DNA of 46,366 bases from NCBI RefSeq assembly GCF_017940815.1, contig NZ_JAGAXX010000049.1:1-46366 (forward strand), read 5' to 3'. The stretch comes from Methanobrevibacter sp. (GTDB lineage: Archaea; Methanobacteriota; Methanobacteria; Methanobacteriales; Methanobacteriaceae). Positions within the stretch are counted from its first letter, which is position 1; the number at the start of each line of letters is the position of its first letter. Under the pieces are notes generated by a model that saw only the letters and a list, made by a program, of their open reading frames with translations, ran no database searches and was not told the origin of the DNA. Of the stretch, positions 5,396 through 10,510 are shown one piece after another. The position numbers and the translations under genes are program-made.

Positions 5396-6737
5396 GACTC
5401 TTTCAAAAACTTTGTTGATTTTCAAAATCCTTTTTGCGATTGTCATTCCAAATTAGATCTCTGCGATATATTCGTTTTAAAACCCCTCGTTTGGTCTTGA
5501 ATGTTCGTTTTCTTGATTTTGGCATTGTTTTTTGAAATGCATTTTCAATTTTGTTACTTGTCTTTTCAATTCGTTTATCTTTTAAGTGATAAATGAAGCT
5601 TTTATATCTTGGAGCTATTGATTTTCTAATGATTTTATAAATAACTGGATGAAAATCATTTTTATGATAAATTAATGATTGTACTTCATTTTTGAATTCA
5701 TCATAGTCATTTAAATCGAATAAATCTTTGATAATTTTCAGTTGTTTGTGACATTCTTGATATTCTTCGTCAGAAATACGATTTTTATCTTTAAAAGTTT
5801 TTAATTGTTTATTTAAACTTTTTTTAGTATGAAAAATACATAATTGATGTTTAAAACCTAGTTTTGGAATAATTGAGGCATATTTTTTATCTAGATCTGT
5901 TGTGATTGCAATTTTATTTTTATTTGCTGTAGATTCTCTTAAAAACTTTTCTACTGTTGTTTCATCTTCAGTATCGTAAATTGCATCGGCTATGATGCAA
6001 TTTGATATGGAATCAAGTAATGTGTGACGATATTTCCATTCTCCGTTGATTTTTATCCATTCAACATCAAAGACGTAATAACCCGAGCAACGTCCTAAAT
6101 CAAATTCTAAAATGTTTTCATTAACAAAAAGCCAATTTTCAATTGTTTGATGTGAAACTGTGATTCCAAAGAATTTTTTAAATGATTTGCAAACATTTTT
6201 TAAGCTTCCCAGATAATCTGAAATTAAATGTTCTGATTCACTTTTCAATTCATTCGTAAAATTGCTGTTTTTATCAACAAGACTTGTTAAATCTGTTTGA
6301 AAGGTTTTATTACAGCGTTTACAGATATAACGCTGAACTTTCACATTAGTTTTACCTATTTCTTTAAATACTAGGGTTCTTTTTGTAAAACCATATTTAA
6401 CAACATGACGAGTTCCACAATAGGGGCATCTGGCTAAACTCATTTTAAAATAAGGAACATCCTTTTTAAAACTTAAATCAAAAGATTTAAGAGCCTTTTG
6501 ACAGGATTTAAAAATTTTCACAAAACGAGGATCTGAAAGGACTAATCCATCATCAGAATCACAAAATATATATTGTTTAACATCTAAAATACTATTTGGA
6601 GTAAATGTTTTTTGATTGGGCATGATAAAAACTTTACTCCAACTCTTTATTAAATTTAACTATTTTTAAACGAAATTAAAAATTCAAAGATAACTTTCAT
6701 CAAAAAAATTCAAATCAACAAAGTTTTTGAAAGAGTC
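5396..6737 (-). mobile_element. Complete insertion sequence, ISM1/IS6-like, 1342 bp
   Basis: The element is bounded by perfect 26-bp terminal inverted repeats (5396-5421 and 6712-6737; outer bases GACTCTTTCAAAAACTTTG). It contains a single transposase gene running towards the left end, and both sides are flanked by AAAAAAAA, consistent with an 8-bp target duplication. Identical ends and an intact gene suggest recent insertion. ISM1, first described in Methanobrevibacter smithii, also makes 8-bp duplications but is shorter. The family is therefore a suggestion. A decayed copy of its ends is at 87-135. Confidence 0.88.
5403..6623 (-). CDS. DDE-type transposase with zinc-ribbon N-terminus
   Basis: A 406-residue transposase. 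A zinc ribbon (C66-x2-C69 and C101-x2-C104) is followed by a helix-turn-helix region (about 140-168, VSHQTIENWL). The catalytic core has a first Asp in YYVFDVEWI (about 186) and a second in ITTDLDKKY (about 243). An HxxC-like HQLCIFH segment follows, and the final Glu lies in TSNKIENAF. The spacing and the TSNKIEN block resemble ISM1/IS256/IS6-type DDE enzymes. The gene stops 7 bases inside the left end of the element and is intact. Confidence 0.9.
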   Translation of the reverse strand: MPNQKTFTPNSILDVKQYIFCDSDDGLVLSDPRFVKIFKSCQKALKSFDLSFKKDVPYFKMSLARCPYCGTRHVVKYGFTKRTLVFKEIGKTNVKVQRYICKRCNKTFQTDLTSLVDKNSNFTNELKSESEHLISDYLGSLKNVCKSFKKFFGITVSHQTIENWLFVNENILEFDLGRCSGYYVFDVEWIKINGEWKYRHTLLDSISNCIIADAIYDTEDETTVEKFLRESTANKNKIAITTDLDKKYASIIPKLGFKHQLCIFHTKKSLNKQLKTFKDKNRISDEEYQECHKQLKIIKDLFDLNDYDEFKNEVQSLIYHKNDFHPVIYKIIRKSIAPRYKSFIYHLKDKRIEKTSNKIENAFQKTMPKSRKRTFKTKRGVLKRIYRRDLIWNDNRKKDFENQQSF

Positions 6738-6765: not shown

Positions 6766-8913
6766 TTATGAAGCGTCAGCCACTTCAACGGCCTCTACTT
6801 CAATATCGTTTGTAAAGTCTCTGTCTTTAAGCACTGATTTTGTACTCATTGCACCGAACATCATTGTGGACAGGTTATGTATCATTGATGATGTTGACGG
6901 TGGAATAACACCCATTACGCCAAGAACTAAAAGGGAACCGTTCACCGCAACGATATTGCGATAGTTGGAATTGATCTTATCCAACATTCCAGTGCTTAGC
7001 TTTCTAAGGGTTACCAGGTCATACAAGTCATCAGACAACAATGAAATGTCTGCAACCTCACGTGCAATATCTGATGAATGTTTCATTGAAACTGATACAT
7101 CAGCCGCCGCAAGAGCAGGTGAGTCGTTAATTCCGTCTCCAACCATGATTACGGTCTTGCCTTCCTCCTTAAGCTCTTCGACAATCCTTGATTTGTCTTC
7201 CGGAAGAACTTGTGACCTGTATTGTGTGATGCCCAATGCCTTAGCACCTGCTTTGGCACCGCTTTCACTGTCACCGGTAAGCATTATGATGTTTTCAATG
7301 CCTAGTGCCTTAAGCTCTTCAATGACATATTTTGCCTCTTCCCTTACAGGGTCGTCAATGCATATCAATCCTTCAAGCTTTCCGTCAATTGCAAGGTAAA
7401 CTACAGAGTGTTCGGCTGCTTTTTTTGCAATCTTCTTCTCTTGAGTCTTGGTTACCTTAACCTTCTCGTCATCGAACAGGAAGTGTTTGGATCCGATTAC
7501 TGCACGTTTGCCATCATATTCGGTAACGATACCATGAGCAACAATGTATTCAACCTCACTGTGGTCCTCCTCATGCTTGAGGCCCTCCTCTTCAGCCTGG
7601 TTTACAATGGCTGTAGCAATACTGTGTGCGAAGTGCTCCTCGATACATGCAGCCATTCTGAGGATTTCATCACGTTGGTATCTTTTTGACATAGGAATGA
7701 CTTCAACAACCTTTGGAGTTGCATTGGTCAAGGTTCCTGTCTTGTCGAACACGATTGTGTCTGCATTTGCATACGCTTCAAGGAATTTACCTCCCTTGAC
7801 CATCATCCTGTTGTCGGATGCCTCACGCATTGCAGATATGATTGACAATGGGGTTGTAAGCTTGATTGCACATGAGAAATCAACCATCAATACGGACAAT
7901 GCCTTAGATGCATTTCTTGTGAGTAGATATGTCAATGCTGTCGCAAGGAAACTGTACGGCACGATTGAATCGGCCAATTTTTCAGCCTTGCTTTGAGTTT
8001 CAGCCTTCAACTCCTCTGAGTTTTCAATAAGGTCAATAATCTTATTTAATCTGGTTTCCTTGTTCATTGAATATACTTCAACGACAATGTTACCCTCTTC
8101 AATTACGGTTCCTGCGTGAACTGTTTTTCCTAAGGACTTATGAACAGCCAGTGGCTCACCGGTCATTGAGGCCTCATTGACCATGGCTTCGCCGTCAACT
8201 ACTTTTCCGTCCACAGGGATCACGTCACCCATGTGGATTTTGATTTTATCCCCTTTATTGATATCCATAGCTGAAACCTGTTTTTCCTCACCGTCTTCTC
8301 CGACTACCCAGACAGTATCAATATTTAAAGCCAAACTGTCTTTTAAAGTACTTTTTGCTTTTTGTACTGTGTAATCCTCTAAAGCGTCGGAGATGGACAA
8401 CAAGAACATCATGGAACTTGCAGGTTGATATTGTCTTTGCAGTAATGCTCCTGCAACTGCAGCACCATCAAGCAATGCCACATCTATACGGAAATCGGTC
8501 AAGCTGTCGAAACCTTCCCATACGTATCTGATTGCACGATATATTGTCAATGCATTCTTGATAGGCAGTGGCAGGAACCATCTTCCAAGCAGCCTGCGTC
8601 CGATCATCTTGGACAATTTCAAATAGAAGTCGTCTGTGATTTCCTTTGAAACCTGAGTCTGTGTCGGTTCGGCTTCAAACAAATCATCAATTGTGATTGC
8701 GCTTAGAATATCGAATATCTTATGCTTGTTTTCAACCTCCCCATCATAGTATATCAATATACTACCGTTTCTGTGGGAAGTGAAAACCTCATGGATAAAA
8801 TCTTGCTCTAAAAGTAATGAAGCGATGCCATAACCTTCCTCCTTGGTGAAGGCCCATTGGCCAGCGCGGATTCTTAAACGAACCCCGCTATCATGCATTA
8901 CTTGAAATTTCAT
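6766..8913 (-). CDS. P1B-type heavy-metal-transporting ATPase
   Basis: A 715-residue membrane pump that uses ATP to move metal ions. The actuator loop TGEP (251-254), phosphorylation site DKTGTLT (D390), LTGDSESGAKAGAKALGI and the hinge GDGINDSPALAAADVS are all present. The metal-site helix reads FSCAIKLTTP (346-355) rather than the usual CPC, CPH or SPC, and the nucleotide-domain HP motif reads HS (EEHFAHSIATAIV). There is no N-terminal CxxC; about 75 residues of an HMA-like fold without cysteines take its place. It lies 31 bases downstream of the small membrane protein gene at 8945-9211, as a probable two-gene operon. The metal cannot be deduced, though the DtxR-like boxes upstream point to iron or manganese. 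Confidence 0.92.
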   Translation of the reverse strand: MKFQVMHDSGVRLRIRAGQWAFTKEEGYGIASLLLEQDFIHEVFTSHRNGSILIYYDGEVENKHKIFDILSAITIDDLFEAEPTQTQVSKEITDDFYLKLSKMIGRRLLGRWFLPLPIKNALTIYRAIRYVWEGFDSLTDFRIDVALLDGAAVAGALLQRQYQPASSMMFLLSISDALEDYTVQKAKSTLKDSLALNIDTVWVVGEDGEEKQVSAMDINKGDKIKIHMGDVIPVDGKVVDGEAMVNEASMTGEPLAVHKSLGKTVHAGTVIEEGNIVVEVYSMNKETRLNKIIDLIENSEELKAETQSKAEKLADSIVPYSFLATALTYLLTRNASKALSVLMVDFSCAIKLTTPLSIISAMREASDNRMMVKGGKFLEAYANADTIVFDKTGTLTNATPKVVEVIPMSKRYQRDEILRMAACIEEHFAHSIATAIVNQAEEEGLKHEEDHSEVEYIVAHGIVTEYDGKRAVIGSKHFLFDDEKVKVTKTQEKKIAKKAAEHSVVYLAIDGKLEGLICIDDPVREEAKYVIEELKALGIENIIMLTGDSESGAKAGAKALGITQYRSQVLPEDKSRIVEELKEEGKTVIMVGDGINDSPALAAADVSVSMKHSSDIAREVADISLLSDDLYDLVTLRKLSTGMLDKINSNYRNIVAVNGSLLVLGVMGVIPPSTSSMIHNLSTMMFGAMSTKSVLKDRDFTNDIEVEAVEVADAS

Positions 8914-8944
8914 TTATACCACTTATGAAAAAAAATGATTGAAC

Positions 8945-9211
8945 CTATTCTTTGGATTCAACGTAGATTTCTTTTTTAGTATCAGCGTTTGCATCAATAA
9001 CAATGTCTTCTGCGTTTTCTTTCATGTCTTGGAAACATGCTTCAGCGTCTTTTTTAGCTGACATTACAGTAGCCATTCCTCTTGTTGCTGCGTCTTTAAC
9101 AGTTTTTGATTCTAATACTTTTTTACCTACGATAGCAGTTGCAATTCCTGCTGCAAAAATTAATGCATGTTTGTGTTCTACACAAGTGTTAATAATATCT
9201 TCGCGTTTCAT
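8945..9211 (-). CDS. Small membrane protein, DUF6110/PacL-like
   Basis: An 88-residue protein with an N-terminal hydrophobic segment (HALIFAAGIATAIVGKKVL, about 14-32). A long amphipathic, Ala/Lys/Glu-rich helix follows (KTVKDAATRGMATVMSAKKDAEACFQD) and then an acidic tail. Layout and helix pattern resemble actinobacterial DUF1490/PacL proteins, which sit beside P1B ATPases and stabilise them or hold metal. Here too the gene is directly upstream of a P1B ATPase. The PacL aspartate/histidine tail motif is missing; the only metal ligands to note are a histidine pair (H13/H15), C6, C60 and acidic residues. The SD is AAGGATGGT. Function is inferred from position and shape. Confidence 0.75.
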   Translation of the reverse strand: MKREDIINTCVEHKHALIFAAGIATAIVGKKVLESKTVKDAATRGMATVMSAKKDAEACFQDMKENAEDIVIDANADTKKEIYVESKE

Positions 9212-9324: not shown

Positions 9325-9686
9325 CATTTCTATTTTATTACTGGAAACAAAGACTCTCCCGCTCAGCCTAGAAGATATTTTGAACCTGATCTCAAAACTT
9401 ATGCAAACCTAAAAAATTTCTTCGATTTACATAAGCCATCTGACAATACAATATTAATAAATTATTCCATATAAACTAATCGATTTTTAAAGTGTTTTTA
9501 GGCTAATCAAAGGATTTTTATTTAGTTATACTTAAAAATAATTTACGTGCATCAAAAAAATTTTTAGTGATGCCAAAAAAATATCACACCTGAATAATGG
9601 ATAAAACACTAAAAAATCATGAAAAATAGTCAAACGATAAAGGCAATAAATTTAAAAAAGCAAAGGTGTGTACTTGAGGTAAAATC

Positions 9687-9767: not shown

Positions 9768-9925
9768 CATCCCTATTATATTTAAATTAAACGGTCTAAA
9801 ATTGAGTTATACCTAAAAAAGTAAAACATATTTAGTTATACCAAAAAATAACGAAGTTATGCAGGGATGTTAAAAAAAATAGTAAAAAATATACAACATA
9901 AATACAAATTCATGTCAAAATATGC

Positions 9926-10051
9926 TCATTTCTTAATTATTTCACGAGCTATAAATGCGCCTAAGGCAACATCCTTAATCAGGCTCAAACTTGATCTTGG
10001 ACGTGGGCGCAATAAACTATGTGACCTTCCATGTCTATGTCTGCGTCCCAT
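9926..10051 (-). CDS. 41-residue His/Arg-rich peptide
   Basis: A small gene beginning MGRRHRHGRSHSLLRPRPRS and continuing into a hydrophobic amphipathic stretch (SLIKDVALGAFIAREIIKK). The ribosome-binding site is strong (GGAGGATAGTAAT directly before the ATG), and a TATA-like CAATATATAAATT (10115-10127) lies upstream. The His/Arg leader resembles the first 20 residues of the neighbouring ferredoxin, RGRHGGGHSSIG, so the two may share a function such as metal binding or membrane attachment. The annotation rests on RBS, promoter and context; no family is recognised. Confidence 0.65.
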   Translation of the reverse strand: MGRRHRHGRSHSLLRPRPRSSLSLIKDVALGAFIAREIIKK

Positions 10052-10211: not shown

Positions 10212-10493
10212 TTATAAACGAACCTGGTCAAGGCAGCGAGTCGGACATCTCATAACACACTTAAGGCATTGTGTGCAACGCCTGTTGTTCAATGTCCATG
10301 TCTTATTGTGCACACTAACTGTTATTGCATTTACAGGACATACAAACTGGCATTTTCCACATAAAGTACACTTATGGATGTCATTTCCTATACGCCATCT
10401 TGACTTATGTGATGAACGTAAAAATTCTGAAAACAAATGCATTCCTAATTCCAAACCAATTGATGAATGGCCACCACCATGTCTTCCTCTCAA
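10212..10493 (-). CDS. 2[4Fe-4S] ferredoxin with basic His/Gly-rich leader
   Basis: The C-terminal half holds two cluster motifs, CTLCGKCQFVCP and CTQCLKCVMRCP, typical of 8Fe ferredoxin domains. Before it are about 40 unusual residues: RGRHGGGHSSIGLELGMHLF, a helix, then SSHKSRWRIGND. I place the start at the TTG at 10493, which has GGGGGAG five bases upstream. A GTG at 10499 is open but overlaps that ribosome-binding site. The operator TTAGGTATACCTAA lies 18 bases upstream, so metal-regulated expression is likely. The electron partner is unknown; the leader could dock it to a membrane protein or bind metal. Confidence 0.8.
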   Translation of the reverse strand: MRGRHGGGHSSIGLELGMHLFSEFLRSSHKSRWRIGNDIHKCTLCGKCQFVCPVNAITVSVHNKTWTLNNRRCTQCLKCVMRCPTRCLDQVRL

Positions 10494-10510
10494 GTACACT
10501 CCCCCATTTT

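Follow-up and report, generated by a model that had tools for sequence, protein, structure and literature searches.

A DUF6110-P1B-6 ATPase gene pair of Methanobrevibacter with a DtxR-type box in common with feoB: a candidate FezA-FezB-type Fe(II) system

Introduction

FezB, the P-type ATPase of the FezA-FezB pair, is said to be a P1B-6 ATPase with archaea included among its hosts, reportedly in work by Grant from 2022. In C. difficile, ferrosomes require both FezA and FezB, and Fur represses the two (PMC12574912). FezB is described as a putative ferrous iron transporter (PMC10979944), and R. palustris carries six fez genes, RPA2333-2338 (PMC12016538). DUF6110 proteins were described by Boudehen in 2022 as lacking a metal-binding motif, occurring mainly in Firmicutes and also in archaea, and being typically encoded with P1B6 pumps, a class featuring a highly conserved HN in transmembrane helix 6 (PMC9374683). 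The mycobacterial pump CtpC has HN together with CPC and is hence termed merely P1B6-like, and PacL2 carries just a half-motif at its C terminus (PMC9374683).

Here we describe a DUF6110-pump gene pair in a window of 46,366 nucleotides from Methanobrevibacter sp., the window being the whole stretch of DNA that was analyzed.

Results

The 88-codon gene lies directly 5' of the 715-codon pump gene on the same strand with a gap of 31 bp (Table 1), and both genes are judged real. The locus has the FezA-FezB layout of a small membrane protein gene adjoining a P-type ATPase gene, and a congener encodes a pump 92% identical to that of the window. The host genome holds a second DUF6110-like gene (G000:C43:5-199, L002), truncated by the contig start, with a peptide/nickel-type substrate-binding protein encoded 3' of it (by eye).

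Table 1. Positions in the window of the gene pair, the boxes and neighboring features
Feature	Position	Strand	Basis or remark
Transposase-like gene with zinc ribbon	5403-6623	-	Directly 3' of the pump gene; weak ISH6 match
P1B-6-type P-type ATPase, FezB-like, 715 aa	6766-8913	-	ORF, motifs and NCBIfam
Small membrane protein of the DUF6110 family (PacL-like; candidate FezA), 88 aa	8945-9211	-	ORF, Pfam and predicted helices
DtxR-type palindrome TTAGGTAAACCTAA	9309-9322		98 bp 5' of the DUF6110 start codon; adjoins an AT-rich TATA-like stretch
Weaker box TTATGCAAACCTAA, possible second operator	9399-9412		Pattern match with two mismatches
Three related weaker sites with AGTTATAC in common	9522-9535, 9803-9816, 9832-9845		In a long intergenic stretch
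41-codon ORF	9926-10051	-	His/Arg-rich start (MGRRHRHGRSH...), short hydrophobic end; no Pfam match
4Fe-4S ferredoxin-like gene	10212-10499	-
Second exact DtxR-type box TTAGGTATACCTAA	10511-10524		Just 5' of the ferredoxin-like gene

The 88-residue protein scores 30.8 bits against Pfam DUF6110 (PF19605), above the curated cut-off of 26, which bears out the DUF6110 link raised in the initial annotation. Its predicted model (pLDDT 77.9, pTM 0.39) consists of a membrane helix (residues 14-33) and a single long helix (36-87), and the tail (...KKEIYVESKE) has no Asp/His metal motif, the same PacL-like layout without an Asp/His tail that had been noted at the outset. DUF1490 (PF07371) has no Pfam match in the protein; a true DUF1490 protein run as control reaches 136.8 bits. 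The profile comparison proposed in the initial annotation gives, by hhalign, a weak match of DUF6110 with a DUF1490 profile built from seven DUF1490 sequences (probability 74%, E 2.9e-5) and a probability of 10% when the DUF6110 profile is compared with one DUF1490 sequence; the likeness stays weak evidence because the higher value needed the seven sequences. Membership of the protein in PacL/DUF1490 is rejected by Pfam, by the tail and by the pump tree.

The M4 helix of the pump contains D345-F346-S347-C348-A349-I350-K351, followed by L-T-T-P, where CPC or SPC is usual, and the HP motif is replaced by HS in EEHFAHS from residue 425; both departures, the first read as FSCAIKLTTP in place of CPC/CPH/SPC, had been recognized correctly in the initial annotation. 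Asn-658 is located in M5, and the last helix, M6, carries H679-N680-L-S-T, giving H679-N680-x-x-T683. Across an alignment of 30 pumps, Asp-345, Cys-348 and Ala-349 are invariant, as is the His-679-Asn-680 pair, which lies within the predicted helix 672-690. The predicted model of the pump has a mean pLDDT of 77.5 and helices at residues 85-113, 116-139, 145-158, 162-194, 305-332, 335-367, 631-666 and 672-690, with helix 335-367 broken at the SCA segment, and a Foldseek search with the model ranks P1B pumps first. The N-terminal domain gives a weak HMA_2 match and is without CxxC. The pump scores 490.9 bits against TIGR01525 (P1B heavy-metal ATPase; cut-off 346), and a copper or zinc class is rejected, as the NCBIfam copper and ZntA models remain below their cut-offs.

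The features given for P1B-6 in PMC9374683 are HN in transmembrane helix 6, no CPC and a DUF6110 partner. The pump has HN in transmembrane helix 6, is without CPC in transmembrane helix 4 and adjoins a DUF6110 gene; it belongs to the known class P1B-6, and a novel pump class is rejected by the same match. The initial description of the metal site as outside any standard class thus holds against the older CPC/CPH/SPC classes but not against P1B-6 as described, and the HS variant is common to most DUF6110-partnered pumps of Bacillota (EEHFPHS).

DUF6110 is present in 101 of 139 Methanobacteriaceae genomes and in none of 13 further genomes of the phylum (152 searched altogether, with the same 101 matches), and the pump motif, sought as a degenerate DNA pattern, is present in 104 of the 139. 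The co-occurrence check suggested earlier, run here within Methanobacteriaceae, finds both in 99 genomes, DUF6110 alone in 2, the pump motif alone in 5 and neither in 33 (Fisher p = 2.8e-24, a value that overstates independence because the genomes are related). Among 60 loci taken around DUF6110 matches, the pump lies directly 3' of DUF6110 in 53. In the other seven (L048, L052, L054, L057, L060, L070 and L096), a CPC pump has between one and four DUF6110 copies in tandem behind it, and the N terminus of the pump is His/Asp/Cys-rich where the sequence extends that far. Such a pairing of a CPC pump with DUF6110 in archaea may be a closer functional analogue of PacL-CtpC; a search of the host assembly found no close homologue of the pump. 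By eye, a MATE-like gene follows this set of genes in several of the seven loci (Methanobrevibacter relatives), and a peptide/nickel-type ABC gene set is present in L054 and L057.

A quick tree of 110 pumps by maximum likelihood (midpoint root, for drawing only) groups the DxSC pumps in a single 58-row clade (support 99). This divides into a DUF6110-type clade of 48 rows (support 100) and a second clade of 10 rows, drawn from Pseudomonadota, Campylobacterota and one Desulfarculaceae genome; in the latter clade, the small proteins encoded upstream are YtxH-like or have no assigned family. The Methanobacteriaceae pumps form a single branch of 21 rows (support 99) among bacterial DUF6110-type pumps. 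Its neighbors are, in succession, Anaerotignum, Defluviitaleaceae and a Spirochaetales genome (95, 98 and 89), and this placement suggests acquisition by a single transfer from bacteria. The DxSC clade includes neither the DUF1490-partnered pumps, which have the CPC motif, nor the CPC pumps found at the seven tandem loci.

The bacterial loci are the best 80 of at least 588 candidates from one collection scan, and their neighbor counts are for that reason examples and not frequencies. Among these best 80, eight loci (L117, L120, L123, L124, L131, L132, L133 and L143) have FeoB, Fur or DtxR-like genes next to a DUF6110-type pair, and FeoB is found near pumps of the 10-row clade in L146 and L169. 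In Azospirillum (L109), six genes form a cluster whose DxSC pump belongs to this sister clade.

Upstream of the DUF6110-pump operon, within 350 bp, a TTAGGTNNACCTAA-type box matching at 10/12 positions or more is found in 45 of the 53 loci (shuffles, mean 1.6 and maximum 5), and at 11/12 or more in 31 of the 53 upstream regions compared with 0.06 in shuffles; the reversed control gives 0, and a clear box is absent from eight regions. Paired boxes have a preferred spacing of 21 bp, and several relatives likewise have a weaker box some 190-200 bp upstream. The host genome has 13 exact copies of TTAGGTNNACCTAA and none of the reversed pattern; in 41 congeneric genomes the two counts are 236 and 18 (summed from the per-genome table). 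The same box lies 80-880 bp 5' of feoB in five genomes (G036, G037, G039, G042 and G043) and 95 bp 5' of a feoB in the host genome, six genomes altogether, so that a conserved DtxR-type box is common to the operon and feoB. It is also near a gene resembling rubrerythrin in G039 (by eye). Elsewhere in the host genome, three exact boxes (L043-L045, G000:C88:27357-27761) occupy a long gap 5' of a 242-codon gene, and similar genes are seen by eye near boxes in G037, G039, G042 and G043. A literature search on an archaeal DtxR-type (MDR1) box returned nothing useful.

One protein in the host genome contains Fe_dep_repr_C, together with N-terminal repressor and FeoA domains, and is the single DtxR-family regulator. 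Its segment HDQACEMEH is at the place of the Cys-Glu-His ligands of DtxR/IdeR (matched by eye). Neither the iron operator nor a ferrosome reading had figured in the initial annotation.

Discussion

The gene pair, the class and clade of its pump, the co-occurrence, the conserved operator in common with feoB and the single DtxR-family regulator are shown computationally. The pair is probably a FezA-FezB ferrosome-type Fe(II) system that would be derepressed in low iron. This reading draws on the reported P1B-6 class of FezB and on the Fez literature, and it would explain why the pump gene has its operator in common with an iron importer; low-iron induction is predicted from the operator.

In the mechanism that we infer, the FezB-like P1B-6 ATPase would pump cytosolic Fe(II) across a membrane, with Cys-348, His-679 and Asn-680 and probably Asp-345, Asn-658 and Thr-683 making up the transport site. 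The FezA-like DUF6110 protein would place one helix in the membrane, packing via conserved glycines, and its long cytoplasmic helix may cluster or stabilize the pump and help shape a membrane patch into an iron-storage vesicle, the ferrosome. The single DtxR-like iron sensor would bind TTAGGTNNACCTAA beside the promoter, so that high iron would keep the operon off and low iron would turn it on, in readiness for iron storage once iron returns. FezC, the DUF4405-like cytochrome of FezABC systems of the Desulfovibrio magneticus type, is rejected for the host, as no DUF4405 gene lies near the operon and the sole match in the genome is sub-threshold, on another contig (C46) and without a box. The host genome has ferritin-family matches, and iron storage therefore need not rely on ferrosomes.

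The main rival, which we regard as rather unlikely, is a plasma-membrane exporter that expels excess Fe(II), with DUF6110 as a PacL-like scaffold clustering the pump in an effluxosome and no vesicle. At the membrane of mycobacteria, PacL proteins cluster P-ATPases and stabilize them, a role that the PacL authors propose for DUF6110 as well (PMC9374683, PMC13043812); the iron-linked operator and context fit an exporter too, and genomic context cannot separate a vesicle from a plasma membrane location. The box, however, stands beside the promoter and is common to feoB, where a DtxR-type protein is expected to repress in high iron; an exporter would then be shut down at the time of need, unless the regulator acts as an activator at this operon. 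The Fur-repressed FezA/FezB of C. difficile, moreover, make ferrosomes (PMC12574912).

An efflux pair for zinc or another divalent metal, working like mycobacterial PacL1-CtpC, is improbable. It would accommodate the distant match between the DUF6110 and DUF1490 profiles and the HN motif common to the last helix of both pumps (PMC9374683), but the pump has no CPC, the small protein no zinc-binding tail, the pump falls in a different part of the tree, and the operator and the feoB/Fur neighbors are linked to iron. Least credible of all is transport of Mn(II), or of Fe and Mn together, under a Mn-sensing DtxR/MntR-type regulator: ScaR and SloR, both metalloregulators, are among the best sequence matches of the regulator to solved structures, and a Glu is at the place of DtxR Met-10 (by eye), but the HDQACEMEH ligand segment has a Cys as in DtxR/IdeR (by eye), and the box is 5' of feoB in several genomes.

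The FezA-FezB-type reading may be carried further, though tentatively and with some doubt: Methanobacteriaceae, gut methanogens included, might build ferrosomes from a bacterial operon acquired once and rewired to an archaeal DtxR-type sensor, with PacL-like DUF6110 and FezA being the same family. The literature examined yielded no report of an archaeal ferrosome, and the word ferrosome was not found in the PacL papers (PMC9374683, PMC13043812). If right, the FezA-FezB-type reading would give a poorly characterized class of methanogen pump a likely substrate, Fe(II), link the PacL-like effluxosome and ferrosome literatures, which stand apart in the papers examined, predict an archaeal organelle that can be tested for in culturable organisms and suggest how the iron regulator of an archaeal host could take over a transferred bacterial operon.

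Comparison with known systems

The six-gene fez operons of the R. palustris kind (PMC12016538) are resembled by the Azospirillum cluster, a comparison made by description, and clusters of this type encode YtxH-like and other small proteins where the window has DUF6110. The C. difficile FezA-FezB pair (Pi 2023, as given in PMC12574912) is, like the pair in the window, a membrane protein and P-type ATPase in an anaerobe; it is under an iron-responsive repressor, and the window pair has a DtxR-type box from which regulation is predicted. The host is, unlike C. difficile, an archaeon, and the box is of DtxR and not Fur type. This likeness to FezA/FezB is drawn by description, and the bacterial DUF6110 pairs and the sister clade bear on it only indirectly.

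PacL1-CtpC of M. tuberculosis likewise combines a one-helix small protein, with a long cytoplasmic region, and an adjoining P1B pump with HN, and the Lys-to-Gly spacing is 8 in both small proteins (K9-G17 in PacL, K14-G22 in the window protein). The window protein differs in having neither a DUF1490 match nor an Asp/His tail, and the PacL1 partner pump has CPC, belongs to another clade and has a zinc context, in contrast to the iron context here. The DUF6110-P1B6 pairs of Boudehen 2022 (PMC9374683) have the same Pfam family, pump class and HN in transmembrane helix 6 and also have no metal tail; the architecture of the window pair does not differ from theirs. As DUF6110 with P1B-6 pumps, without a metal motif and in archaea too, was thus published in 2022, the initial claim that an archaeal pair would be new biology falls. 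The class is already known; relative to those pairs, the iron operator, the pump tree and the reading as a ferrosome-type system are new.
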